Positions 3,018 through 16,895 of a DNA stretch of 40,407 nt are shown piece by piece. The DNA lies in the NCBI GenBank assembly GCA_039182125.1, contig JBCDCH010000034.1, forward strand, positions 1-40,407, given 5' to 3'. The stretch comes from Planctomycetota bacterium. GTDB lineage: Bacteria; Planctomycetota; Phycisphaerae; Tepidisphaerales; Tepidisphaeraceae. The notes under the pieces were generated by a model, which worked only from the letters and a program-made list of their open reading frames with translations, did not search any database and had not been told where the DNA came from. Made by a program: the position numbers and the translations under genes. Every line of letters begins with the position of its first letter. The stretch's first letter is position 1.

Positions 3018-5114
3018 TCAGTCCACCTTTTCAAGGCTGACATCGTCGAGGTAGTACGAGGTGGTTTTGTCGTTGATGCGGAAGCTGATATTGCCGACGG
3101 TGACGGTATCGTCGAACGGGATGTCGAACTCGGCTTCCACCTTGTTCCACTGCCCCGAGCCGACGTGGACCGGGTCGGACGAGTAGACGTTGCGACCGCC
3201 GGCGGTGGCGACGATCAGGTGGATGTTCGACCGGCCGGTCCCCTGCTCGAGGCGGACCCAGCCGGTCACGCGGTACTTGCCCGGGCCGTTGATGTTGAAC
3301 ACGTCGGGCACGCGCTGGGTGAAGCTATGCCAGCGCTGCTGGCGTTCGATGAGCTTGCCGGCCATCGCCCCGGAACGCTTTACGTCCGTCGAAGGCACGA
3401 CCCGCACCCGCCCGCCGTCGCCGGTGTACCAGCCCTCGGCCCCCAACTCGAAGTCGGCGTTGTGCACCTCCCGCAGGATGTACGGCACCTCCTGCGGTCG
3501 ATGCACCAACTCGTCCTCGCGGGGGTGTGAGAAGTACACGCCATCGGCCGGCGGCTGCTCGATCTGCAGCCGGAACGCGGCGGGCAACTTAGCACCGTCT
3601 CGAACGCGGATCACACCGTCTTCCAGCACCACTGGCCGCGCCTGTTGCGTCGACTCAAAAAACTGGTTCACGCCCAGGATCCCTATGCCCTCGACCTGCG
3701 TGCCGAGGTGGATCACCGCGTCGGCGTCGCGGATCACGCCCAGGATCTCGCCGGTGTATGGGTTCACGGCGGCGAGGGATTGCTCGTCGGCCACGGCGGT
3801 GGGACTCAGGTACACGCGGTTGTCGTAGTCCCAGAGCCGGTCCTCTACCGGCGTGACGTGCGAGTTTTCCCAGCCGGCGACAATGCGGATGAGCTTGAGG
3901 TCGTTGCTATAGGTGTGCGGGTTGCGGCGGAACTCCCGGGCGAACGTGCCGTAAGAGAAGAAGTTGCTGCCCCGCGTGGCGCACTCGCCGAAGATCACCA
4001 GCTGTACCGGAAAGCTGGGGTTCTTGGGGAACGCGTCGGCGGTGACGTTGCCCAGCAGGTTCAGCGGCCAGCCGTCGTCGGCCAGCTCTTTCTGGCTGAG
4101 GAATTCGAGCGTGGGCTTCTCGCCGACCATCGCGTCGCCGCGGATGCCGCCCAAAAGGTCGGACGTCACCGACGGGTGCCGGATGTCGGCGATGTGCTGG
4201 CCCCAATCCGACCACAGCGCCGCGGGCTCGTGCACGATCTTGATGTCGCGGTCGGGGAACTCGGCTTCGAGTTCGTTGTGCAGCCGGCCGAGGAAGTGGT
4301 ACCACCCCTCCTGCAACGTGGCGTAGTCGTACGCCATGCCCGGCCGAGCCACCGCAGTGCGCTCCGTGTCCGGCGTGCCGGGCAGCTTGCGGTTCGACGA
4401 CCAGTTGAACTCGTTCCAGATGTCGGGCACGTCGAAGGCCACGCCCTTGAATAGGTAGTTCTGCTCCGGCCGCTCCTGGGCCCGCACGTGCGCGACGATC
4501 GTCGCGACGTGGTCGTCGATCACCGCGTCCTGCTGGTAGTCCGGGCACGGCTCCCAGCGGTTGGGCACGCCGTCGCCCCAGGTCTGCAGCTGCGCCAGGT
4601 TGTGCGGGAACGGCCGGTCGGTGTTCGCCCAGGACTTGGTCGCCTCGAACTTGTCCTTGTAGGCTTCATAGACCCGCGGCGCCGCCTGCTCGAGCGCCCG
4701 GAACTCTCGCTCGTCGATCGCCCGCGGCAGCATCGGGTGCCGGCCCGTGATGTAGGGTGCCGCTTCCTTGGCCGCCGCCAACTCGGCGTCGCTGAACGCG
4801 CCGTCGACCAGGTGCTGGATGTGTTTGTGCGGGTCGTTGTAGTAGAAGAACAGGTCGGCCCGGTGTGGGCCTTCGTAGGTGTCGTGCTTCTGGCCGTGGT
4901 AGGCGTAGCGGTACCCCAGCCCGCGGGCCAGCCGAAGCTGCGGCCCCGGCTCGTCCTGCGGCCCGTCCCAGCCGATGCCGTGGATGTTCAGCCACCCCAT
5001 CGGCCGTTCATCGGGTTGGGCCATCGCCGGGCATGTCACAGTCAAGGCCAAGCCCACCCCAAGCGCAAGACACTTGAGGCGGGCAACGGTGGCGTGTCGG
5101 TAGTGTGTGAGCAT
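3018..5114 (-). CDS. Secreted 698-residue protein, putative glycan-active enzyme with C-terminal CBM-like domain (tandem paralogue A)
   Basis: I do not recognise the family. The ATG at 5114 gives a signal peptide (MLTHYRHATVARLKC followed by a hydrophobic run to AMA) and a length of 698 residues, identical to the paralogue upstream; a GTG at 5153 in frame is less likely. The N-terminal region carries LNIHGIGWDGP and RADLFFYYNDPHK. The centre has acidic motifs (FDVPDIWNEFNW, VHEPAALWSDWGQ, VIFGECATRGSNFF) that could supply catalytic Glu/Asp in a barrel fold. The last 150 residues (NADFELGAEGWYTGDG, then YYLDDVSLEKV) look like a CBM4/9-type jelly roll. It sits between its duplicate and a sulfatase, so a role in breaking down a sulfated glycan is a reasonable inference. 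Confidence 0.75.
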   Translation of the reverse strand: MLTHYRHATVARLKCLALGVGLALTVTCPAMAQPDERPMGWLNIHGIGWDGPQDEPGPQLRLARGLGYRYAYHGQKHDTYEGPHRADLFFYYNDPHKHIQHLVDGAFSDAELAAAKEAAPYITGRHPMLPRAIDEREFRALEQAAPRVYEAYKDKFEATKSWANTDRPFPHNLAQLQTWGDGVPNRWEPCPDYQQDAVIDDHVATIVAHVRAQERPEQNYLFKGVAFDVPDIWNEFNWSSNRKLPGTPDTERTAVARPGMAYDYATLQEGWYHFLGRLHNELEAEFPDRDIKIVHEPAALWSDWGQHIADIRHPSVTSDLLGGIRGDAMVGEKPTLEFLSQKELADDGWPLNLLGNVTADAFPKNPSFPVQLVIFGECATRGSNFFSYGTFAREFRRNPHTYSNDLKLIRIVAGWENSHVTPVEDRLWDYDNRVYLSPTAVADEQSLAAVNPYTGEILGVIRDADAVIHLGTQVEGIGILGVNQFFESTQQARPVVLEDGVIRVRDGAKLPAAFRLQIEQPPADGVYFSHPREDELVHRPQEVPYILREVHNADFELGAEGWYTGDGGRVRVVPSTDVKRSGAMAGKLIERQQRWHSFTQRVPDVFNINGPGKYRVTGWVRLEQGTGRSNIHLIVATAGGRNVYSSDPVHVGSGQWNKVEAEFDIPFDDTVTVGNISFRINDKTTSYYLDDVSLEKVD

Positions 5115-5154
5115 CGTTCTCGTTTCGTATTGGTCGCGTTGTTTTGGCGGCACT

Positions 5155-7251
5155 TCAGTCGATCTTGTCGAACGTCACGTCGTCGAGGAAGTAGGGCATC
5201 GTCGGGTGATCGATGCGGAAGCCGACACTCGCGGCGCCGGCGGTGCCGGTGAAGTTGATGTCCAACTCGGCCGAGACTTTGACCCACTCGCCGGGTTTGA
5301 GCCGGACGGGCGACGAGGAGAACGTGTTGGTGCCCTCGGCAGCGGTGCGGACCATGACGTGAATCGAACTGTCAACCTCGAAGTCCGAGCCTGCAGACTG
5401 CCGGACATAGCCGGTGATGCGGTAGGTGCCCGGGCCGTGGATGTTCAGCACGTCCGGGATACGTTGCGTGAAGCTGTGCCAGGCTTTGGTGCGTGCGATC
5501 AGCTTGCCCGAGAGTTCGCCGCTGCGGACGACATCGCTCTCGGCAACGACGCGGACGTCGCGGCCGTCGCCGGTGTACCAGCCTTCGGGGCCGAGCTCGA
5601 AGTCCGTGTTGTGTACTTCGCGGAGGATGTAGGGGACTTTCTGCGGCCGATGGACAAGCGCCTCGTGCTCGGGGTGGGAGAAGTACACGCCATCGGCGGC
5701 GGCCTGGTCGAGTTGCAGACGGAAGCCGAGCGGCAGCTTGACGCCGGGTTTGGGCTTGATCAGGCCGTCTTCGATCACGACCGGCGGTTCACCATCGACC
5801 GGCTCGAAGAATGCGTTGACACCACGCAGGTTGCCGGTCGGAGACACGCCGTCGGCCAGCTTGATCGCGGCGTCAGCCGAGCGGAGCGTGCCTTGGATCT
5901 CGCCGGTGTATGGGTTGACGGCGGCGAGGGATTGCTCGTCGGCGACGGCGGTGGGGCTGAGGTAGACGCGGTTTTCATAGTCCCACAGCCGAGCGTCTAC
6001 GGGTGTGGCGTTCGAGTTCTCCCAGCCGGCGACGATGCGGAGCAGGTTGAGGTCGACGCCGTAGGTGTGCGGCAAACGCTCGAACTCCCGGGCGAACGTG
6101 CCGTAGGCGAAGAAGTTGCTGCCCCGTGCCGCGCACTCCCCGAAGACGACGAGTTGGAGCGTGAAGCTGGGGTTCTTCGGGAAAAGGTCGCCGGTGACGT
6201 TGCCCAGCAGGCTCACCGGCCAGCCGTCTTCGGCAAGTTCTTGCTGCGTGAGGAACTCGAGCGTCGGCTTTTCGCCGACCATCGCGTCACCACGGATGCC
6301 GTCCATCATCTCCTCGGTGACCGACTCGTAAGGGATGTCGGCGATGTATTGGCCCCAGTCCGCCCAGATCGCGGCGGGCTCGTGAACGATCTTGGTGTCG
6401 CGCTGCGGGAACTCGTCTTCGAGCGCATCGTGCAGGCGGTCGAGGAAGTGGTACCAACCTTCCTGCAACGTGGCGTAGTCGTACTCGACGCCGGGACGCG
6501 CGACTGCGGTGCGGGCTTCGTCGGGTGTGCCGGGCAGGCCACGGTGCGATGCCCAGTTGAACTCCTTCCAAATCTCCGGCACGTCGAAGACCACGCCCTT
6601 GAACAGGTAAGCGTCGGCGGGGCGTTCCTGAGCCTTGACGTGGGCGACGATGGCCGCGACGTGTTCGTCGATCACCTCGTCACGCTGGTAGTCCGGGCAG
6701 GGTTCCCAGCGGGTCGCGTCGCGGTCGCCCCAAATCTGCAGTTGCGCGAGGTTGTGGGGGAATGGCTGATCGGTGTTGGCCCAGGACTTGGTGGCTTCAA
6801 GCTTGTTCTTGTACGCCTCGTAGACCCGGGGGGCTGCTTTGGCCAGACGCTCGAACTCGGGCTCGTCGATCGCCCGAGGAATCATGGGGTGTAGCCGCAT
6901 CGTGTACGGCGCCACTTCACGGGCAGCGGCCAACTCTTCCTCCGTGAAATCGTCCTCGACCGACGTTTGAATCTGTTTGTGCGGGTCGTTGTAATAGAAA
7001 AACAGGTCCGCGCGGTGTGGGCCTTCGTAGTGATCGTACTTCTCGCCGTGGTAGTTGTAGCGGTAGCCCAAGCCGCGGGCGAGGCGGAGGATCGGGCCTG
7101 GGTCGTCGTCCGGGCCGTCCCAGCCGACGCCATGGATGTTGAGCCAGGCGTTGGGGAGTGGATCCGGCGTCTCCGCGTCGGCTTGTCCGGTGACAGCAAC
7201 AGCAAGAACGGCAGCGGCGACAAGGCCGGGCTTAAGTCGTGAAAATGGCAT
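5155..7251 (-). CDS. Secreted 698-residue protein, tandem paralogue B
   Basis: This is the tandem duplicate of the next gene downstream, with the same length and motif order: LNIHGVGWDGP, RADLFFYYNDPHK, FDVPEIWKEFNW, VHEPAAIWADWGQ, VVFGECAARGSNFF, and a C-terminal CBM4/9-like domain (TDFELGPEGWYTGDG to YFLDDVTFDKID). A signal peptide occupies the first 27 residues and ends QADA. It is probably first in the leftward operon with paralogue A, the sulfatase and the symporter; the gap to paralogue A is 40 bases. The promoter should lie in 7252-7395, which holds a palindrome. Stretches near the centre and the CBM are almost identical, while the signal peptides and parts of the C-terminus have diverged. 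Function is unknown; a glycosidase or lyase is the best guess. Confidence 0.75.
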   Translation of the reverse strand: MPFSRLKPGLVAAAVLAVAVTGQADAETPDPLPNAWLNIHGVGWDGPDDDPGPILRLARGLGYRYNYHGEKYDHYEGPHRADLFFYYNDPHKQIQTSVEDDFTEEELAAAREVAPYTMRLHPMIPRAIDEPEFERLAKAAPRVYEAYKNKLEATKSWANTDQPFPHNLAQLQIWGDRDATRWEPCPDYQRDEVIDEHVAAIVAHVKAQERPADAYLFKGVVFDVPEIWKEFNWASHRGLPGTPDEARTAVARPGVEYDYATLQEGWYHFLDRLHDALEDEFPQRDTKIVHEPAAIWADWGQYIADIPYESVTEEMMDGIRGDAMVGEKPTLEFLTQQELAEDGWPVSLLGNVTGDLFPKNPSFTLQLVVFGECAARGSNFFAYGTFAREFERLPHTYGVDLNLLRIVAGWENSNATPVDARLWDYENRVYLSPTAVADEQSLAAVNPYTGEIQGTLRSADAAIKLADGVSPTGNLRGVNAFFEPVDGEPPVVIEDGLIKPKPGVKLPLGFRLQLDQAAADGVYFSHPEHEALVHRPQKVPYILREVHNTDFELGPEGWYTGDGRDVRVVAESDVVRSGELSGKLIARTKAWHSFTQRIPDVLNIHGPGTYRITGYVRQSAGSDFEVDSSIHVMVRTAAEGTNTFSSSPVRLKPGEWVKVSAELDINFTGTAGAASVGFRIDHPTMPYFLDDVTFDKID

Positions 7252-8899: not shown

Positions 8900-10804
8900 A
8901 TGAACCAACAACGTGCCACGCTGTTCCCCGAGGGCCGATTGTCGCTCGGGGCCAACTACTGGGCCAGTCACGCCGGGACCGCGATGTGGTCGGACTGGCG
9001 CGAGCAGGTCGTCCGCGAGGATCTGCGCAAACTCGCGGCCGCAGGGATGGACGTGCTGCGTGTCTTCCCGCTCTGGCCGGACTTTCAGCCGATCCATCGT
9101 TTGTTCAAGCAAAACAACGTACCGGTCGGGTTCTCGTTTGCCGACGGCGTGCCGTTGCCCAATCGCGACGGGATCGACGAGGTCATGGTCGAGCGATTCC
9201 GCGCGCTGTGCCGGATCGCCGCCGAGTGCGAGATCAAGTTGGTCGTGGGCTTGGTGACGGGCTGGATGAGCGGCCGGTTGTTCGTGCCGCCCGGGCTCGT
9301 TGGGTTGGACCCGATCACCGACACGATCTCGGTGCGTTGGCAAGTGCGGCTCGCGCGAGGGTTGGTCGAGCGCCTCATCGACGAGCCGGGCATTGCCGCG
9401 TGGGACCTGGGCAACGAGTGCAACGAGATGGGCGCGGCCCGCAGTCGTGACGAGGCCTACGCCTGGACCGCCGCCGTGGCCGGTGCGATCCGGTCGGCCG
9501 ATCCGGGGCGTCCGTTGGTCAGCGGCATGCACTCGCTCAAGGTCGCCGAGCCTGACGTTTGGCGTATTCAGGACCAGGGCGAGCTGACGGACGTGCTCAC
9601 GACACACCCGTATCCGTTCTGGGTGCCGCACGTTGGGAACAACCCGACCGACACGGCCGGCCCGATCCTCCATGCCGCGGCCGAGACGACGCTGTACGCC
9701 GACCTTTCGGGCAAGCCCGCGTTCGCCGAGGAGATCGGCAGCATGGGCCCGACCGTGCTCGACGACGACCGCTCGGCCGACTTCTTCCGGGCGAGCACCT
9801 TCACGCTCTGGGCCCATGGCGGGCGGGCGTCGTTGTGGTGGTGTGCGTTCGATCAGGAGGCGCTCGTTCATCCGCCGTACGAGTGGGTGGCCGTCGAGCG
9901 TCGGCTCGGCATGGTCCGCCGCGACGGTTCGTCGAAGCCGGTGCTCGACGCGCTCGGCCAGGTTCGCATCAAGGTCGACGACATCCTCACGCGCCACGGC
10001 ATCGACGCACTTCCGCCGCGCGTCGTCGACGCGGCGGTGCTGCTCACACCCGGCCAGGACAACTGGGCCGCGGCGTTCGGAGCGTTCGTGCTGGCCAAGC
10101 AGTCCGGGCTGGACGTGCGGTTCATGCACGCCGGGGCGGCGCTCCCGGAGGGACCGGAAGTGCTCCCCGATCCGGTCGAGGTGCCTGCTCTGATCGTGCC
10201 GTCAGTTGCCGGGCTGATGGCGATCACGGCGAGCTTGGCCGCGAAACTTCACGCCTACGTCGAGGCGGGCGGGCGGCTGTTGGTCACGCTCGACGATGCC
10301 CACGTGCCGGACCTCGACACGCTCTTCGGCCTGCACCTGCACCGCCGCTATCCGCGAACCGACGCGCAACCGTTGGCGAGTGACGTGCGGCTCGACCTTT
10401 CGGTGGAGTCCGCCGAGGTACATGCTGCCGAGCCTGACGGAAATCCGGTGCTGACGAGCAACCGTGTCGGGCGGGGCGAGGCATGGTTCCTGACCTGGCC
10501 GGCCGAGAAGCATCTCGCGACCACGCCGGACGGCATCGACGCCGGGTTGCCGTTCTACCAGCAGTTCGCCAACGGTCGGCAAACGCAAAAGCGTGCCTCG
10601 TGCATTTCGCTCGGCGTTCACATGACCGAGCACATCCTCGACGCGTCGCGTCGGTTGTTGCTGTTGGTGAACGTCACCCATGCGGCGGTCGAAGCCGGAA
10701 TCATGCCGACGGACGGCTGGACGTCATCGGCGTCGTCGGTGACCGTGCCGCCGTTCGGGGTGGCCGATGCGTTGCTGACAGCCGCGCGGGCGTCGTCGGC
10801 GTGA
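8900..10804 (+). CDS. Clan GH-A glycoside hydrolase (GH5/GH42-like), probably cytoplasmic
   Basis: A 634-residue glycosidase. The ATG at 8900 follows the esterase stop by four bases; an open frame further upstream overlaps the esterase and is not used. Residues 1-370 read as a TIM barrel: GANYWASHAG near residue 18, MDVLRVFPLWPDF near 50, the acid/base motif WDLGNE with Glu at 173, HPYPFW near 236, and a nucleophile motif FAEEIG with Glu at about 278. Residues 385-500 (LLTPGQDNW to GGRLLVTLDD) resemble the glutamine-amidotransferase-like trimerisation domain of GH42 enzymes, and a small beta domain ends the protein. There is no signal peptide, so it probably acts on imported oligosaccharides. 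Its TGA touches the stop of the convergent ketosynthase. Substrate unknown. Confidence 0.82.
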   Translation: MNQQRATLFPEGRLSLGANYWASHAGTAMWSDWREQVVREDLRKLAAAGMDVLRVFPLWPDFQPIHRLFKQNNVPVGFSFADGVPLPNRDGIDEVMVERFRALCRIAAECEIKLVVGLVTGWMSGRLFVPPGLVGLDPITDTISVRWQVRLARGLVERLIDEPGIAAWDLGNECNEMGAARSRDEAYAWTAAVAGAIRSADPGRPLVSGMHSLKVAEPDVWRIQDQGELTDVLTTHPYPFWVPHVGNNPTDTAGPILHAAAETTLYADLSGKPAFAEEIGSMGPTVLDDDRSADFFRASTFTLWAHGGRASLWWCAFDQEALVHPPYEWVAVERRLGMVRRDGSSKPVLDALGQVRIKVDDILTRHGIDALPPRVVDAAVLLTPGQDNWAAAFGAFVLAKQSGLDVRFMHAGAALPEGPEVLPDPVEVPALIVPSVAGLMAITASLAAKLHAYVEAGGRLLVTLDDAHVPDLDTLFGLHLHRRYPRTDAQPLASDVRLDLSVESAEVHAAEPDGNPVLTSNRVGRGEAWFLTWPAEKHLATTPDGIDAGLPFYQQFANGRQTQKRASCISLGVHMTEHILDASRRLLLLVNVTHAAVEAGIMPTDGWTSSASSVTVPPFGVADALLTAARASSA

Positions 10805-12088
10805 TCAGTCGGTGAATCGGCGGATGACGACCGCGTCGTTCTGGCCACCGAAGCCGAAGCCGGTGCTCATGGCGACGGGAACGTCGGCGGCACGGGCCTC
10901 GTTGGGCACGTAGTCGAGGTCGCACTCGGGATCGTCGGCGTCGAGGTTGGCCGTGGGCGGGAGCTTGCCGTCGCGCATCGCCAGGACACAGGTGATCAAC
11001 TCGACCGCGCCGGCGGCGGCGATGAGGTGGCCCATCATGCTCTTGATGCTGCTGACCGGGATGTTGTACGCGTCGTCGCCGAAGACTTGCTTGATCGCAC
11101 GGGTTTCGTTGCCGTCGTTCTCGCGGGTGCCGGTGCCATGGGCATTGATGTAGCGGACGTCGGTCGGCCGGAGGTCCGCGTCGGTGAGGGCCTCGCGCAT
11201 GGCGATGACCGCGCCGGTGCCGTCGGGGTGCTGGTCGGTGATGCGGTAGGCGTCGGCGGTGCTGCCGTAGCCGACGACCTCGGCGAGGATCGTCGCGCCA
11301 CGGGCCTGGGCGTGCTCGAGGGTTTCGAGAATGACCACGCCCGCGCCTTCGCCCAGCACGAAGCCGCCCCGGTCGGCGGAGAACGGTCGGCTCGCGGCCG
11401 GCGGGTTTTCGTTCTTCTCCGAGAGGGCGGTCAGCCGATTGAAGCCGGTCACGCCCAGCGGGTGGATCATGGAGTGAGCACCGCCCGAGATCATCACGTC
11501 GGCGTCTCCGCGGCGCAGGATTTCGGTCGCCTCGCCGATCGCTTGGGTCGAGGCGGCACAGGCAGTGAGGCAGTTGAACGCCGGACCGGACGCGCCGGTG
11601 AGCTTGGCCAGGTGTGCCAGCGGCAGGTTCGGTTCCTGCTCGATCTCGCGCATGGCGCTCATGGCCACAAACGCGACGTCGGCCCACTTGGCCATGTCGA
11701 GTTCCCGGGCTTCGGTGTCGTACCCGGTGAGCACGGCTGTCGAATAGGGGCCGAAATCGAGCGACCCTTCGCCGCTGGCGAAGTACATGCCCACGCGGTC
11801 GTTGTTCAGGTCGCCGTTAAAATTGGCTTGCGTCCACGCCTGCTTGCATGCGGCCAGTGCAAACCGCGTGTTTCGCCCGGCACCGGCGTGCTCGGCATGT
11901 TCGGGCAGATGGTCCGCGAGGTCGAAGTTCTTCACTTCGGCCGAGATCTGCGTCGGGAACGTGTCGGCTTCGAAGAGTGTCGTGCGCGCGATCCCCGACC
12001 CGCCCGAGAGCAACTGATGCCAGACACTCTCCAGATCGTGCCCGAGCGGCGTGATCCAGCCCATTCCGGTAATGACGACGCGATGCAT
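10805..12088 (-). CDS. Beta-ketoacyl-[ACP] synthase, FabF type, complete active site
   Basis: A 427-residue condensing enzyme that adds malonyl-ACP to an acyl chain. It has the full catalytic set: nucleophile Cys177 in NCLTACAAS, the first His in NAHGTGT, and Lys and the second His in SIKSMMGH. The start MHRVVITGMGWITPLG is standard for the family. It lies 24 bases behind another ketosynthase on the same strand, with no ACP, ketoreductase or dehydratase nearby. It could be the housekeeping FabF, or the active half of a specialised ketosynthase pair; the paired arrangement favours the second. It ends exactly against the stop codon of the convergent glycosidase. Confidence 0.93.
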   Translation of the reverse strand: MHRVVITGMGWITPLGHDLESVWHQLLSGGSGIARTTLFEADTFPTQISAEVKNFDLADHLPEHAEHAGAGRNTRFALAACKQAWTQANFNGDLNNDRVGMYFASGEGSLDFGPYSTAVLTGYDTEARELDMAKWADVAFVAMSAMREIEQEPNLPLAHLAKLTGASGPAFNCLTACAASTQAIGEATEILRRGDADVMISGGAHSMIHPLGVTGFNRLTALSEKNENPPAASRPFSADRGGFVLGEGAGVVILETLEHAQARGATILAEVVGYGSTADAYRITDQHPDGTGAVIAMREALTDADLRPTDVRYINAHGTGTRENDGNETRAIKQVFGDDAYNIPVSSIKSMMGHLIAAAGAVELITCVLAMRDGKLPPTANLDADDPECDLDYVPNEARAADVPVAMSTGFGFGGQNDAVVIRRFTD

Positions 12089-12112
12089 GAGTTTCGAGGT
12101 TAGGGAGGATCG

Positions 12113-13423
12113 TTATGCCTTGCGGAACACCAGTGCCGCGTTCTGCCCGCCGAGGCTGGCGACGCTGGTGAGCGCGATCTTGGCGTCCATCGGGCGGGCG
12201 TCGTTGGACGTGTTCAGGCCGGCGCGGTCGCAGTTGATCGCGGGCGGGGCGGTTTGGTGGTGGAGCGCGAGAACGGCGGTGGCGGCGTCCTGGCCGCTAC
12301 CGGCGGCGAGGGCGCCGGTTTGCCCTTTGATCGGACAAAACGCCGGCTTGCCGAGATCATCGCTGAACGCACGGCGGAGACCCGCCAACTCCGACGCGTC
12401 AGCCGGTGCGTAGCCGACACCGTGCGGAACGATCACGTCCACGTCGCCCGGGGCGGCTTCGGCTTCACGCAGCGCGTTGGCCACCGCGTTGCCGTACGCC
12501 CGTCCCTCCGGATCGGCGTCAACCAAGCCGGTCGCGTCCTGGCTCGCGCCGAAGCCGACGACTTCGGCGTAGATCGTCGCGCCACGCGTTTTGGCCGCTT
12601 CGAGTTCTTCAAGGATCAGCAAGCCACCGCCCTCGCCGTGGACACTGCCTTTGGCGTCCTGGGCGAACGGGCGCACGGCGTTGGCCGGATCATCGTTGCT
12701 CTCGGCGTTGAGCCGGCCGAGCAGGGTGTGTCGGGTCGTGCCCATCGGATTGACCTTCGACTCGGCACCGCCGCAGATGCAAACGTCCGCGTCGCCGCGT
12801 TGGATCGTGCGATATGCCTCGCCGATGGCGAGATGGCTGCTCGCGTCCGCGCAGGTGATCGTGTTGCTCGGCCCCATCAGCCCGTGGATGATCGTCACGT
12901 GGCACGCCAGCATGTTCGGCAGGTACTTGAGCAGCCAGAGCGGCGTGAGCTTGGTCATGCCGTCGGCGCCCCACTTGCTCAGGTCGAGCTTGTTCGGGTC
13001 GGCATCGGATCGGGCGGTGTCCATTGCGACCGCGAGTTCCTCGAGGTCGGCATTGATCAGGCCCGCGCCGATGTTGCAGCCGAAGCGTTCGGGGTTGATG
13101 GTGGGGTTGTCCGTGACGCCGCTGGTTTCGAGTCCCGCCGAACGCACCGCATCGTCGGCCGCGACCACGGCCAACTCGATGTCCCGCGCCATGACCTTCG
13201 CGGCCTTGCGGTAGTGTTTGGGCACGTACTGGTTGACCTTGAACGGCGGCGTCGTCGCGGCGAGCTGGCACGGAAAGCCGGAGGCATCGAAACGCTCATT
13301 CTTCGTGACGGCGATCGTGCCAGCGGTGAGGGCGGCCCAAAAGTCGCCAGCCCCAAGCCCGAGCGGCGAAGCCACACCAACCCCTGTCACCGCCACGCGT
13401 CGTTCGTTCGATGAAACAGCCAT
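12113..13423 (-). CDS. Ketosynthase homologue lacking the second catalytic His (chain-length-factor-like partner)
   Basis: A 436-residue thiolase-fold protein that opens with a ketosynthase start (VAVTGVGVASPLG). It keeps the active Cys (residue 191 in TITCADASS) and the first His (residue 334 in PHGVGY). In place of K-S-x-x-G-H it reads PIKGQTGALAAG, so Lys366 is present but the second His is Ala371. In type II polyketide and aryl-polyene systems one member of a ketosynthase pair is degenerate and sets chain length or specificity. Here the loss differs from classical CLF, where Cys becomes Gln. It lies directly upstream of a complete ketosynthase, so a heterodimer is the natural inference. 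The ATG at 13423 is the only good start. Confidence 0.85.
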   Translation of the reverse strand: MAVSSNERRVAVTGVGVASPLGLGAGDFWAALTAGTIAVTKNERFDASGFPCQLAATTPPFKVNQYVPKHYRKAAKVMARDIELAVVAADDAVRSAGLETSGVTDNPTINPERFGCNIGAGLINADLEELAVAMDTARSDADPNKLDLSKWGADGMTKLTPLWLLKYLPNMLACHVTIIHGLMGPSNTITCADASSHLAIGEAYRTIQRGDADVCICGGAESKVNPMGTTRHTLLGRLNAESNDDPANAVRPFAQDAKGSVHGEGGGLLILEELEAAKTRGATIYAEVVGFGASQDATGLVDADPEGRAYGNAVANALREAEAAPGDVDVIVPHGVGYAPADASELAGLRRAFSDDLGKPAFCPIKGQTGALAAGSGQDAATAVLALHHQTAPPAINCDRAGLNTSNDARPMDAKIALTSVASLGGQNAALVFRKA

Positions 13424-13619: not shown

Positions 13620-13880
13620 ATGGCCAACGGTGAGATCGAGCGGCGGGTTTGGTTGACGTTTCCGGATCAGGCGGCGGTGGAGCGGCCGTTGATTTGGCGG
13701 ATGAGCCGGGAGTTCTCCGACGTGGTTTTCGACATCCGCCAAGCGAGCGTGCAGGCACACATCGGCATCATGGCGATGCTGCTCAAGGGAGAGACGCAGC
13801 GCGTTGCCGGGGCGATCGAGTTTCTTCGGAGCGAAGGCGTGCAGGTTGACCCGATCGAGAAGACGGTGATCGAGGGGTAG
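13620..13880 (+). CDS. Stand-alone NIL-domain protein
   Basis: The ATG at 13620 gives 86 residues, almost all one NIL domain: a beta strand (ERRVWLTFPDQ), a helix (AVERPLIWRMSREFS), two strands around VVFDIRQASVQAHIGIMAMLLKG, a second helix (TQRVAGAIEFLRSEG) and a last strand (VQVDPIEK). This domain is best known from the C-terminus of the methionine importer ATPase MetN, where it binds methionine, and from ferredoxin fusions in an anaerobic homocysteine pathway. It faces a MoaD-like sulfur carrier in a cluster headed by a SAM riboswitch, so a methionine or homocysteine role (sensor or sulfur-transfer partner) is likely. An upstream in-frame start at 13551 would add an unrelated tail and is rejected. 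Confidence 0.8.
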   Translation: MANGEIERRVWLTFPDQAAVERPLIWRMSREFSDVVFDIRQASVQAHIGIMAMLLKGETQRVAGAIEFLRSEGVQVDPIEKTVIEG

Positions 13881-13885
13881 GGGAA

Positions 13886-13968
13886 GGCGCTAGGCGCTGG
13901 TGGCTAGTCGCTAGCGCCTGTCAGCGATGTGCGTGGCAAGCCCTAGCGCCTAGTTCCTAACCCCTAGC
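13886..13968. repeat. CTAG-rich inverted-repeat cluster between convergent genes
   Basis: Six CTAG tetramers lie in about 80 bases, mostly inside GGCGCTAG / CTAGCGCC arms in both orientations. The cluster fills the gap between the convergent NIL and sulfur-carrier genes. It can fold on both strands and could act as a bidirectional terminator or be a REP-like element. There is no long T tract. Confidence 0.5.
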
Positions 13969-13970
13969 GT

Positions 13971-14267
13971 CTACTCCGCTCCCCCCGCGATCGCGGGGAC
14001 GATGCTGACTTCGTCGCTGTCCTTCACGGGTGTTTTGAGATCGTCCATGAAGCGGATGTCCTCGTCGTTGACGTAGATGTTGACGAAGCGGTTGAGCTGG
14101 CCTTCGGACTCGGCGGTGGGAACTTGCTTGAAGAGTCGGGTTTCGATGCCCGAGGCGTTGGAAGTGAGTGTGGTCAACACTTCGCCAACGGTGGTGCCGT
14201 TGATTTCGATGACATCGGCACCATCGGTGTACTGGCGCAGCGGAGAGGGGATGCGAACTTTGGGCAT
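13971..14267 (-). CDS. MoaD/ThiS-family sulfur carrier protein with a two-residue C-terminal extension
   Basis: A 98-residue beta-grasp protein. It begins KVRIPSPLRQYTDG, has the central VNDEDIRF, and ends AIAGGAE. Carriers of this family end in Gly-Gly, which is adenylated and turned into a thiocarboxylate that donates sulfur. Here Ala-Glu follows the Gly-Gly, so a JAMM-type protease would have to trim it, as known for QbsE. It is the last gene of a leftward operon behind a ThrC-like enzyme and a secreted protein, and the operon is controlled by a SAM riboswitch. By analogy with CysO feeding CysM, it probably feeds sulfide to the PLP enzyme. A molybdopterin role is less likely, since no moa or moe gene is nearby. 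Confidence 0.85.
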   Translation of the reverse strand: MPKVRIPSPLRQYTDGADVIEINGTTVGEVLTTLTSNASGIETRLFKQVPTAESEGQLNRFVNIYVNDEDIRFMDDLKTPVKDSDEVSIVPAIAGGAE

Positions 14268-14282
14268 GGATCGGTGGGTTGA

Positions 14283-15161
14283 TTACTTGAGTTGGAGGCC
14301 GCCGCCCTGGTTCATGGCAACGATCTCTTCGGCGACGATGCGTAGCTCTTCGTCGAGCTGAAACCGGTGAGGGACGAACTTGATGGCCCGGGCACCGTCG
14401 TCCCACTCGAGGCCGGTGAACACGCGGGGTCCTTTATGGCCGGCGGCATCGGCCATCATTTCGGCGACGGCCCGAACCTGTGCCGGCGGTGCGTCGATCG
14501 CCCAGCTACGCGCGTTGCTGATGATCTTGTCGACGACCGGTTTGGGATTGTGTCCCGCCTCGGCACGCTGGTAGGCATCCTGAAGCGCGGCCTGAATGGA
14601 CTGCGGGCCGACCGGCAGCCGCTCGCGCAGGGCGTTGCGATAGCCGAAGATGACGTGATTGCCCGAAGTGCGTGTCTTGAGTTCCTGCTGCCATTGCGAG
14701 CGGATCCGTGGTAACTGGTTTTGCCTGGCACCCTGAAGGGCTTGCTGGAGACGCATCTGATCCTGCATTTCCATGCCCGGTTGGGGCTCGGGCAAGGGGG
14801 CGTTGTAGTACGCCTGCACCGCCGACGGGACGAGCTCGTCGGGGATGGTGTCGAGGCTCGCGACGAGTTCCCATTTGATATAGGCGTCGACCGACGGCTC
14901 GGTGTGAATCCGCTCGTTGAGCGCGAGCACGACGATCTCGGGGGTGAGGTGCCTGTCGTACTTCTTGCCGCTTGTCTTGAAGAAGTTGGCCCGTTCCGGT
15001 CCGAGTTCACCGGCGGTGCGGGCCTTGATGTAACGCTCCTGCAACTCGCCGACCGCTTCCTGAATCGCAGCCTTGGCCTCGTCGTCAATCGCGGGCGTCG
15101 CGGATGCGGCACCAGCGGACAGGGCAAGCATCAACATGACGGTTAGGACGTGTAAGCGCAT
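14283..15161 (-). CDS. Secreted protein of unknown function in the SAM-controlled operon
   Basis: I do not recognise this 292-residue protein. A signal peptide covers residues 1-21 (MRLHVLTVMLMLALS, cut after ASA). The rest is rich in charged and helical sequence, with repeated helix-like blocks such as EAKAAIQEAVGELQERYIKA and TPEIVVLALNERIH, and a Gln-rich middle (EMQDQMRLQQALQGARQNQ). A GLEWDDG motif and the C-terminal QLDEELRIVAEEIVAMNQG follow. There are no cysteines that suggest disulfides or metal centres. It lies between the ThrC-like gene (38-base gap) and the sulfur-carrier gene (15-base gap), so it is co-transcribed with two cytoplasmic proteins. Its link to sulfur metabolism is unclear. 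Confidence 0.7.
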   Translation of the reverse strand: MRLHVLTVMLMLALSAGAASATPAIDDEAKAAIQEAVGELQERYIKARTAGELGPERANFFKTSGKKYDRHLTPEIVVLALNERIHTEPSVDAYIKWELVASLDTIPDELVPSAVQAYYNAPLPEPQPGMEMQDQMRLQQALQGARQNQLPRIRSQWQQELKTRTSGNHVIFGYRNALRERLPVGPQSIQAALQDAYQRAEAGHNPKPVVDKIISNARSWAIDAPPAQVRAVAEMMADAAGHKGPRVFTGLEWDDGARAIKFVPHRFQLDEELRIVAEEIVAMNQGGGLQLK

Positions 15162-15199
15162 GGTTCGGTATCTCCTCGGCTCGCCGACATCTTACACCC

Positions 15200-16519
15200 T
15201 CACACGGCCGTGAGAGCCTCTTGGGCGTTGGACACGCGGGCCGCGGTTTGGTTCAGCGAGTCGGGGCCGCCGTGCTCATCGACGTAAGCGTCAAAGGCGT
15301 CGAGCTTGGCTTCGATGGAGGCGGGGCGGTCGAGCTTGTCGGCGACGGCTTCGATGGTTTTGAGCCCGTTGCCGGTGACGCAGACGACGATGGACTCGTC
15401 CTTGTCGATGGTGCCGTTCTGGATGAGCTTGACGGCGGCGGCGAGGGTGGTGCCGCCGGCGGGTTCGGTGAAGATGCCTTCGGTCCGGCCCAGGAGTTTG
15501 ATCGCGTCGACGATCTCGGCATCGGTCGCGTCCATGCCGGCGCCGCCGGAGTCTTTCACGGCGTGGTAGACGTAGTAGCCGTCGGCGGGGTTGCCGATGG
15601 CGATGGACTTGGCGAGCGTATGGGGCTTCTGCGGCTTGATGATGTCGTTGCCGGCGCGGAGCGAGGTGACGACCGGGTTGCAGCCGGCGGCTTGGGCCGA
15701 GTAAAACTTCGCGCCGCCTTCGGGGACGTCGACGAGGCCAAGCTTTTCGAGTTCGGCGTAGGCCTTGTGAACTTTGGGCAGGATCGTGCCGCCGGCGGTG
15801 GGGAGGATGGTGTGCTGCGGGAGCCGCCAGCCGAGCTGCTCGGCGATCTCGAAGCCGTGCGTCTTAGCGCCTTCGGTGTAGAACGGGCGCAGGTTGACGT
15901 TGACGATCGCCCAGCCGTATTTGTCGGCGATCTCGGTGCAAAGGCGGTTGACGTCGTCGTAGTTGCCCTTGATCGGCACGACCTTGGGACCGAAGACCAG
16001 CGACGCGACGACCTTCCCCTGCTCCAGGTCGTGGGGGATCATGACGTAGCAGTTAAGCCCGGCCTGGGCGGCGTGGGACGCGACGGAGTTGGCGAGGTTG
16101 CCGGTGGACGCGCAGCCGACGGTGTCGAAGCCGAACTCGACGGCCTTGGTGATCGCCACCGACACGACGCGCTCCTTGTACGAGTACGTCGGGTAGTTGC
16201 AGGAGTCGTCCTTGATGTACAACTCACGGCAGCCCAGCTCGGCCGCGAGACGGTCGGCCCGCTTGAGCGGTGTGAAACCCGAGTGGATGCCGCAACGCGG
16301 CTCGCCCTCGACCGGCAACAGCTGGCGATACCGCCAAAGCGACTGCGGCCCGGATTCGATGCTCTCGCGCGTGACCTGGCCACGCATTGCGTCGTAGTCG
16401 TACTCGACTTCGTAGGGGCCGAAGCATTGCGTGCAGACGTGAACGGGCGCGGCGGGGATCTGGTGACCGCACTCGCGGCACTTGAGACCTTTGACGAAGT
16501 GGGAGGGCGCTTGGCTCAT
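15200..16519 (-). CDS. thrC: Threonine-synthase-like PLP enzyme with N-terminal zinc ribbon, under a SAM riboswitch
   Basis: A 439-residue fold-type II PLP enzyme. An N-terminal zinc ribbon (CRECG and CTQC, residues 12-34) precedes the catalytic domain. The PLP lysine lies in YSYKERV, the phosphate-cradling loop in CASTGNLANS, and the substrate-binding part includes TAGGTILP. Threonine synthase converts O-phosphohomoserine to threonine and phosphate. The ATG at 16519 matches the family start; a longer frame would run into the terminator of the riboswitch. A SAM-I riboswitch upstream and a sulfur carrier downstream suggest that it may instead use a carrier thiocarboxylate to convert O-phosphohomoserine to homocysteine. 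That function is inferred, and plain threonine synthase remains the default call. Confidence 0.88.
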   Translation of the reverse strand: MSQAPSHFVKGLKCRECGHQIPAAPVHVCTQCFGPYEVEYDYDAMRGQVTRESIESGPQSLWRYRQLLPVEGEPRCGIHSGFTPLKRADRLAAELGCRELYIKDDSCNYPTYSYKERVVSVAITKAVEFGFDTVGCASTGNLANSVASHAAQAGLNCYVMIPHDLEQGKVVASLVFGPKVVPIKGNYDDVNRLCTEIADKYGWAIVNVNLRPFYTEGAKTHGFEIAEQLGWRLPQHTILPTAGGTILPKVHKAYAELEKLGLVDVPEGGAKFYSAQAAGCNPVVTSLRAGNDIIKPQKPHTLAKSIAIGNPADGYYVYHAVKDSGGAGMDATDAEIVDAIKLLGRTEGIFTEPAGGTTLAAAVKLIQNGTIDKDESIVVCVTGNGLKTIEAVADKLDRPASIEAKLDAFDAYVDEHGGPDSLNQTAARVSNAQEALTAV

Positions 16520-16557
16520 GGCGTTTGATACGCCGCGGCGGTGCGAACGATCCGGAT

Positions 16558-16590
16558 AAAAGAAAACCCTCGTCTTGTCGGACAAGGGGG
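16558..16590 (-). terminator. Riboswitch-controlled intrinsic terminator upstream of the thrC-like gene
   Basis: On the minus strand, CTTGT-CCG-ACAAG, extended by CCC/GGG around a small bulge, is followed by TTTTCTTTT. It sits between the SAM aptamer and the ATG. The 3' strand of the aptamer P1 helix (GGATAAGGG, complement of 16642-16650) can pair over nine positions, one of them G-U, with CCCTTGTCC (complement of 16580-16588), which is the 5' half of this terminator. That is a complete terminator/antiterminator switch of the SAM-off kind. Confidence 0.8.
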
Positions 16591-16643
16591 TCGTTGGGCA
16601 AGGTCGGTCGAGCCGGGGCGGCTCGATCGTTTGCTCTGCGTCC

Positions 16644-16761
16644 CTTATCCACCCTGCTGGCCTCCCAGCAGGCGGGGCTTGGCACCCTTCCGGTCACGCG
16701 GTGCGTGGTCGGTGGTTGCCGTGGTTTCGACGGGCCCGCGCCCTCCACCACTCTCGATAAG
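16644..16761 (-). promoter_or_regulatory. SAM-I (S-box) riboswitch aptamer
   Basis: The minus strand carries the conserved S-box core in order. It has the 5' P1 strand CTTATC (complement of 16756-16761), GAGAG followed by TGGTGGAGGG, GGGCCC (16732-16737), GGCAACC (16714-16720), GGGTGCCAAG (around 16678-16687), a P4 hairpin with arms at 16653-16660 and 16665-16672, and the closing P1 strand GATAAG (16644-16649). It lies upstream of the ThrC-like, secreted-protein and sulfur-carrier genes. Binding of S-adenosylmethionine should stabilise P1 and allow the downstream terminator to form, shutting the operon when methionine is plentiful. Confidence 0.93.
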
Positions 16762-16895
16762 TTCGCGCCGAAGCGGCTTGGTTGTGAGTACACGATAGCC
16801 GGGCCGGCGTTTCGATCAAGAAATCGGCGTCGAGGCGTGATTGGCCGCACTTTTGCAGATTCGCGGGCACCGTGACTCTGTTATCTTCACCACCC

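Follow-up and report, generated by a model that had tools for sequence, protein, structure and literature searches.

A candidate O-phosphohomoserine sulfhydrylase under riboswitch control in a planctomycete, with a sulfur carrier and a NIL-domain neighbor

PMC12172450, citing Hasebe et al. 2024 (AEM 90:e01247-24), summarizes MetM of Streptomyces as a novel homocysteine synthase whose substrate is O-phosphohomoserine. According to the same summary, the carrier gene of Streptomyces albulus is metO, an S-adenosylmethionine (SAM) riboswitch lies upstream of metM, and MetM homologues occur in cyanobacteria. Protein-thiocarboxylate-dependent homocysteine synthesis is also credited to HcyS/HcyD/HcyF/MetY of Wolinella succinogenes (Krishnamoorthy and Begley 2011, cited in PMC5764234), and the NIL protein of the DUF39 pathway is described as methionine-binding and regulatory (PMC12068725). 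This report concerns a 40,407-nucleotide stretch of a planctomycete draft genome (Tepidisphaeraceae; contig JBCDCH010000034.1, positions 1 to 40,407; hereafter the window), in which a SAM riboswitch precedes genes for a threonine synthase-like (ThrC-like) enzyme and a sulfur carrier, with a NIL-domain gene on the opposite strand.

The ThrC-like gene is a candidate for an O-phosphohomoserine sulfhydrylase (homocysteine synthase), an enzyme that resembles threonine synthase and very probably makes homocysteine. A preliminary description of this DNA had suggested that O-phosphohomoserine and a carrier thiocarboxylate react to give homocysteine, and genome context makes this the best-supported reading. 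That the operon carries out homocysteine synthesis of the MetM/MetO type is proposed here with high confidence; anatomy, clade, genome context, and co-occurrence are shown, and the activity is predicted. The reaction is not a new proposal, since the core mechanism has already been reported for S. albulus MetM/MetO (PMC12172450). The part that looks new, apparently, is the NIL partner.

The riboswitch, the enzyme, and the genome

The features of the locus are as follows.

16642..16763 (-): SAM riboswitch aptamer (S-box); RF00162 74.3 bits, E 9.6e-16, full model 1-108
16567..16588 (-): terminator-like hairpin with T tail (expression platform), between aptamer and start codon
15200..16519 (-): metM-like gene for a ThrC-like pyridoxal phosphate (PLP) enzyme, 439 residues; PALP 211 bits, TIGR00260 270 bits
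14283..15161 (-): open reading frame between metM and metO for a secreted-looking 292-residue protein
13971..14267 (-): metO-like gene for a ThiS/MoaD-family sulfur carrier; PF02597 54.8 bits; ends AIAGG-AE
13620..13880 (+): gene for a free-standing NIL-domain protein; PF09383 40 bits against a 24-bit cut-off; convergent with metO

The minus strand thus reads S-box, hairpin, ThrC-like enzyme, 292-residue protein, and ThiS-family carrier, and the NIL gene converges on them from the plus strand. Profile searches bear out the preliminary description for the S-box, the ThrC-like first gene, the MoaD/ThiS-like last gene (ending GGAE), and the lone NIL domain opposite; the 292-residue protein is an element absent from it. 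The S-box scores well above the RF00162 gathering score of 44.4 bits and is the sole match to that model in the whole genome, a draft of 4.13 Mb in 131 contigs rated 100% complete. The hairpin consists of an 8-pair stem followed by TTTTCTTTT and is stable when folded alone; when the entire leader is folded, the minimum-energy structure instead has the hairpin's 5' arm paired with the 3' strand of P1. Aptamer and hairpin have the predicted layout of the customary S-box on/off attenuator, with both the aptamer and the expression platform of a SAM-I riboswitch.

The window enzyme has the MetM signature, YPTYSYKERVV together with NVNLRPFYTEGAKT. In a tree of 126 proteins, built by a quick method and containing long branches, it lies with the MetM of Nonomuraea in a 115-member group that is separated from eleven ThrCs by a fully supported branch (SH-aLRT, an approximate likelihood ratio test, 100; length 2.41). 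At the PLP lysine, members of this group share PTxS[FY]K[DE]RVV, and they have in common a second motif of the N[VI]N[LI]RP[YF]Y[AT]EG[SA]KT type. In ThrCs, by comparison, the PLP motif has Gly or rarely Ser ahead of its Ser, and the second motif has NP. The P[ST]GSFKD[RN]-type motif of ThrC, and with it the role of the genome's threonine synthase, belongs to another protein: a canonical ThrC with PSGSFKD is encoded on contig 48. It is one of five PALP enzymes in the genome, the others being IlvA-like, CysK-like, and TrpB-like proteins and the window enzyme itself.

No enzyme of the MetB/MetC/MetY/MetZ family (PF01053), no MetX, and no DUF39 protein (PF01837) was found in the genome, MetA (HTS family) not having been searched for. 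The lone weak PF01053 match above the cut-off (36.7 bits) is a class I/II aminotransferase. Two genes of the homocysteine-methyltransferase family are present, one in a 1299-residue frame, as expected for MetH. The checks proposed in the preliminary description, for a second thrC and for missing metB, metY, and metZ, therefore both came out in its favor: a second ThrC exists and metB, metY, and metZ are absent, so the genome does not show the combination that the description named as its refutation.

These findings bear directly on whether the window enzyme could be a second threonine synthase, with SAM control serving to balance threonine against methionine. Its TIGR00260 score exceeds the family cut-off, the AlphaFold model (predicted local distance difference test, pLDDT, 87.5) has threonine synthases as its best structural matches, the nearest solved structures are threonine synthases as well, and a Microcystis homologue showed threonine synthase activity (PMC12172450). 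Yet the genome has its canonical ThrC elsewhere, and threonine synthesis switched on at low SAM would drain the methionine branch point. Such a role would also leave the genome without homocysteine synthesis, and it explains neither the carrier nor the exchange with PF01053 enzymes described below. A second threonine synthase is thus highly improbable; an ordinary one is rejected in view of the motif, the clade, the second ThrC, and the otherwise missing homocysteine route.

Relatives of the enzyme and its carrier

The comparison set comprises 120 genomes from the host's class, 37 with a MetM orthologue and 83 without; 35 loci were inspected. Orthologues score at least 480 bits (partial genes at contig ends were also counted), and ordinary ThrCs about 250 bits or less. 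An S-box lies upstream of the orthologue in 34 of the 35 loci, the 35th being interrupted by a contig end, and the carrier is found in 30; because of these frequencies, the association of S-box, enzyme, and carrier is not attributable to chance. MetM and Cys_Met_Meta_PP enzymes substitute for each other among these relatives. A PF01053 enzyme is present in 81 of the 83 genomes without MetM and in 9 of the 37 with it (Fisher test, phylogeny ignored, 2.5e-17), and the same test finds the split within the family (p 0.005) as well as beyond it (p 1e-12). In this class, then, the MetM clade stands in for the classical enzymes in a nearly one-to-one exchange, from which a simple re-annotation rule follows. 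DUF39 occurs in 4 of the 120 genomes. In two class relatives (G073 and G106), neither MetM, a PF01053 enzyme, nor DUF39 was found; these may be auxotrophs, contain gaps, or possess a further route.

More than 588 relatives of the window enzyme turned up when 84,980 species genomes were scanned, and the best 80 were surveyed. They come from Verrucomicrobiota, Planctomycetota, Nitrospirota, Nitrospinota, Methylomirabilota, Rokuibacteriota, Omnitrophota, Elusimicrobiota, Margulisiibacteriota, Thermodesulfobacteriota, Myxococcota, Acidobacteriota, Pseudomonadota, and Actinomycetota. An S-box core precedes 44 of these 80 at a distance of no more than 500 bases and two others at 1-2.3 kb, in every case on the strand of the enzyme gene. 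A carrier gene follows MetM within 1 kb in 65 of the 71 testable loci from other taxa, and in Nonomuraea gerenzanensis the S-box, the MetM enzyme, and the carrier occur together. The survey suggested in the preliminary description thus finds the three elements together in many phyla. Enzymes of a single clade, mis-annotated as "threonine synthases" and often found under an S-box and beside a carrier, occur in at least 14 phyla. Many uncultured phyla resemble methionine auxotrophs because they lack MetX, MetB, and MetY.

The carriers of relatives mostly end exactly in GG, and those of the class loci nearly always at or just past AIAGG. E1 and/or JAMM genes are often part of the MetM cluster (e.g., L083, L087, L100, L107, L115). 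A ThiS-E1-rhodanese fusion with an internal Gly-Gly lies near MetM at two loci (L069, 4111-5592; L070, a class member, 9147-10670), the latter among the f15 clusters. The host genome itself encodes a MoeB-rhodanese protein, a ThiF near a JAMM protein with an intact HSHP..PSATD motif (HSHPDAEPVPSATD), and a second ThiF+JAB pair; of these genes, located elsewhere in the genome, some presumably serve the carrier. The 292-residue protein has no match in Pfam or NCBIfam, and its homologues occupy the equivalent position in five other loci (L036, L038, L041, L050, L051). Sitting between metM and metO, it would therefore be under the control of the shared S-box.

The sulfur source could also be free sulfide, with MetM making homocysteine from O-phosphohomoserine and the carrier serving elsewhere or helping only at low sulfide. 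PLP sulfhydrylases often take sulfide, the genome carries other sulfur-transfer genes, and in six loci (L098, L122, L127, L128, L133, L142) the 1 kb downstream of MetM showed no GG-ending carrier. The adjacency of carrier and MetM in most loci, often with E1 and JAMM genes, and the ThiS-E1-rhodanese fusion within the f15 clusters make sulfide use unlikely. A carrier-dependent sulfhydrylase might alternatively yield another product, such as cysteine. CysM makes cysteine from O-phosphoserine, and the chemistry, the type of carrier, and the fold type II PLP enzyme would all be shared with CysM/CysO. The genome, however, already contains a CysK-like gene, the S-box and the replacement of Met enzymes indicate methionine, and the window enzyme is closer to threonine synthase than to CysK or CysM, so that a product other than homocysteine is extremely improbable.

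Several points weigh against homocysteine synthesis by this operon. Nine class relatives carry both MetM and a PF01053 enzyme, and the Fisher tests take no account of phylogeny. The Microcystis homologue, which shares 51.6% identity with S. albulus MetM, was reported to act as a threonine synthase/deaminase, and the authors doubted that it has a full MetM role (PMC12172450); homology alone therefore does not decide the reaction, and transfer of function needs an assay. The link proposed to S. albulus MetM runs through the Nonomuraea protein. No homoserine kinase of the GHMP type scores above the cut-off in the genome, although canonical ThrC depends on O-phosphohomoserine just as MetM does; a kinase of some other type must exist. 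Finally, a draft genome in 131 contigs, even one rated complete, may lack a gene.

Homocysteine synthesis of the MetM/MetO type would proceed as follows. At low SAM, the layout of the leader suggests that the S-box lets transcription read through the hairpin before metM. A JAMM protease would trim MetO after its Gly-Gly, and a MoeB/ThiF-type enzyme with a rhodanese would adenylate and thiocarboxylate it. By homology to the Streptomyces proteins, MetM would take O-phosphohomoserine and, by the same PLP vinylglycine chemistry that threonine synthase uses, release its phosphate. The MetO thiocarboxylate, reportedly the sulfur donor in Streptomyces, would then add sulfur in place of water, and hydrolysis would give homocysteine, which MetH would convert to methionine. 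The NIL protein may feed back on MetM or MetO upon binding methionine.

The NIL-domain protein

Across the 120 class genomes, the NIL-protein profile is present in 30 of the 37 with MetM and in 2 of the 83 without, of which G018 has a completeness of just 58%. The other matches to the profile are weak (~45 bits) and fall in exactly the four DUF39 genomes, beside DUF39. In most relatives the NIL gene adjoins metO and lies on the strand of metO. In G009 and G011, NIL and MetM are on different contigs, even though those with MetM extend over 252 and 56 kb; co-occurrence therefore reflects more than operon inheritance.

In several phyla, carrier and NIL domain form a single open reading frame (L076, 8170-8682; L115, 7290-7805; L149, 1809-2324; L153, 7236-7757), and a further fusion (L129) is interrupted by a contig end. 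The ThiS-GG|NIL fusions keep AIAGG at the joint, directly ahead of NIL, and in this respect resemble ubiquitin fusions. Because the AIAGG is internal, a fused carrier would need cleavage before thiocarboxylation, and two of the fusion-bearing loci (L115 and L153) include a JAMM gene.

The NIL profile matches the C-terminal domain of MetN (E 2.7e-10), as does the NIL structure model. Since that domain binds methionine, and since the NIL of the DUF39 pathway is described as methionine-binding and regulatory, the NIL protein of the window is proposed to bind methionine and to act on MetM or MetO as a feedback subunit, a role given about an even chance. Such feedback on carrier-dependent homocysteine synthesis may parallel that of the NIL subunit in the DUF39 pathway, which is unrelated. 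The presence of a NIL partner in both suggests a methionine feedback module shared by non-classical homocysteine routes. The fuller proposal, held more tentatively, is that NIL constitutes a third, previously undescribed MetM/MetO component whose fusions are cut by JAMM proteases in some phyla, releasing active carrier and sensor in a one-to-one ratio. A literature search, whose scope did not extend to the primary MetM paper (Hasebe et al. 2024), found no precedent for pairing NIL with either a carrier or MetM.

The main rival to feedback is that NIL serves MetO as a structural adaptor or in sulfur handling and is not a methionine sensor, or that it is a neighbor with no role at all. The fusions join NIL to the carrier and not to MetM, the ligand is proposed from profile and fold, and no NIL gene was found within 6 kb of MetM in N. 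gerenzanensis, so that the protein is not required everywhere. Against this rival, NIL proteins have no conserved Cys, and a passive neighbor is hard to reconcile with the unlinked genes of G009 and G011. The match to a methionine-binding domain, and the restriction of further profile matches to the vicinity of DUF39, the other non-classical homocysteine enzyme, whose NIL is described as binding methionine (PMC12068725), also favor a sensor. An adaptor or bystander is accordingly rated as possible, at somewhat less than an even chance.

Just past the NIL gene, and convergent with it, are two neighboring ketosynthase genes of the KAS II type (10805-13423, minus strand). Farther along the window (3018-7251, minus strand) are genes for two adjoining large proteins, both of which carry a CBM_4_9 domain at the C terminus, and an adjacent sulfatase gene (1515-2978).

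Comparison with described systems

With S. albulus MetM/MetO, the locus shares a ThrC-like PLP enzyme, an adjacent carrier, an upstream SAM riboswitch, and, by homology, O-phosphohomoserine as the probable substrate. It differs in that the planctomycete clade has SYKERVV in place of SFKDRVV, that NIL belongs to the set, that the window carrier ends in GG plus two residues, and that a secreted-looking protein lies between the two genes.

The Wolinella HcyS/MetY system obtains homocysteine with a protein thiocarboxylate, as is proposed for the locus, and its carrier is likely JAMM-processed. The Wolinella enzyme is MetY, a PF01053 protein with O-acetylhomoserine as its substrate, whereas the enzyme here is a ThrC relative; the host genome has no PF01053 enzyme, which excludes a system of the HcyS-MetY type. 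The DUF39/COG1900 system (L-ASST) with NIL-ferredoxin, found in methanogens and Desulfovibrio, resembles the proposed system in combining non-classical homocysteine synthesis with a NIL domain. The substrate and chemistry differ, the window NIL is free-standing and without ferredoxin, and the absence of a PF01837 protein from the host genome excludes the DUF39 pathway.

Mycobacterium CysM/CysO/Mec would have in common with the proposed system a fold type II PLP enzyme, a thiocarboxylated carrier, and a JAMM protease, but the window enzyme belongs to the ThrC branch and the mycobacterial product is cysteine. Canonical ThrC shares the fold, the PLP lysine, and probably the substrate; its motifs differ, it forms a separate clade, and the window genome possesses its own. 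The C-terminal NIL domain of MetN agrees with the window NIL in fold and sequence profile, whereas the window NIL is not fused to an ABC ATPase and accompanies a biosynthetic enzyme.

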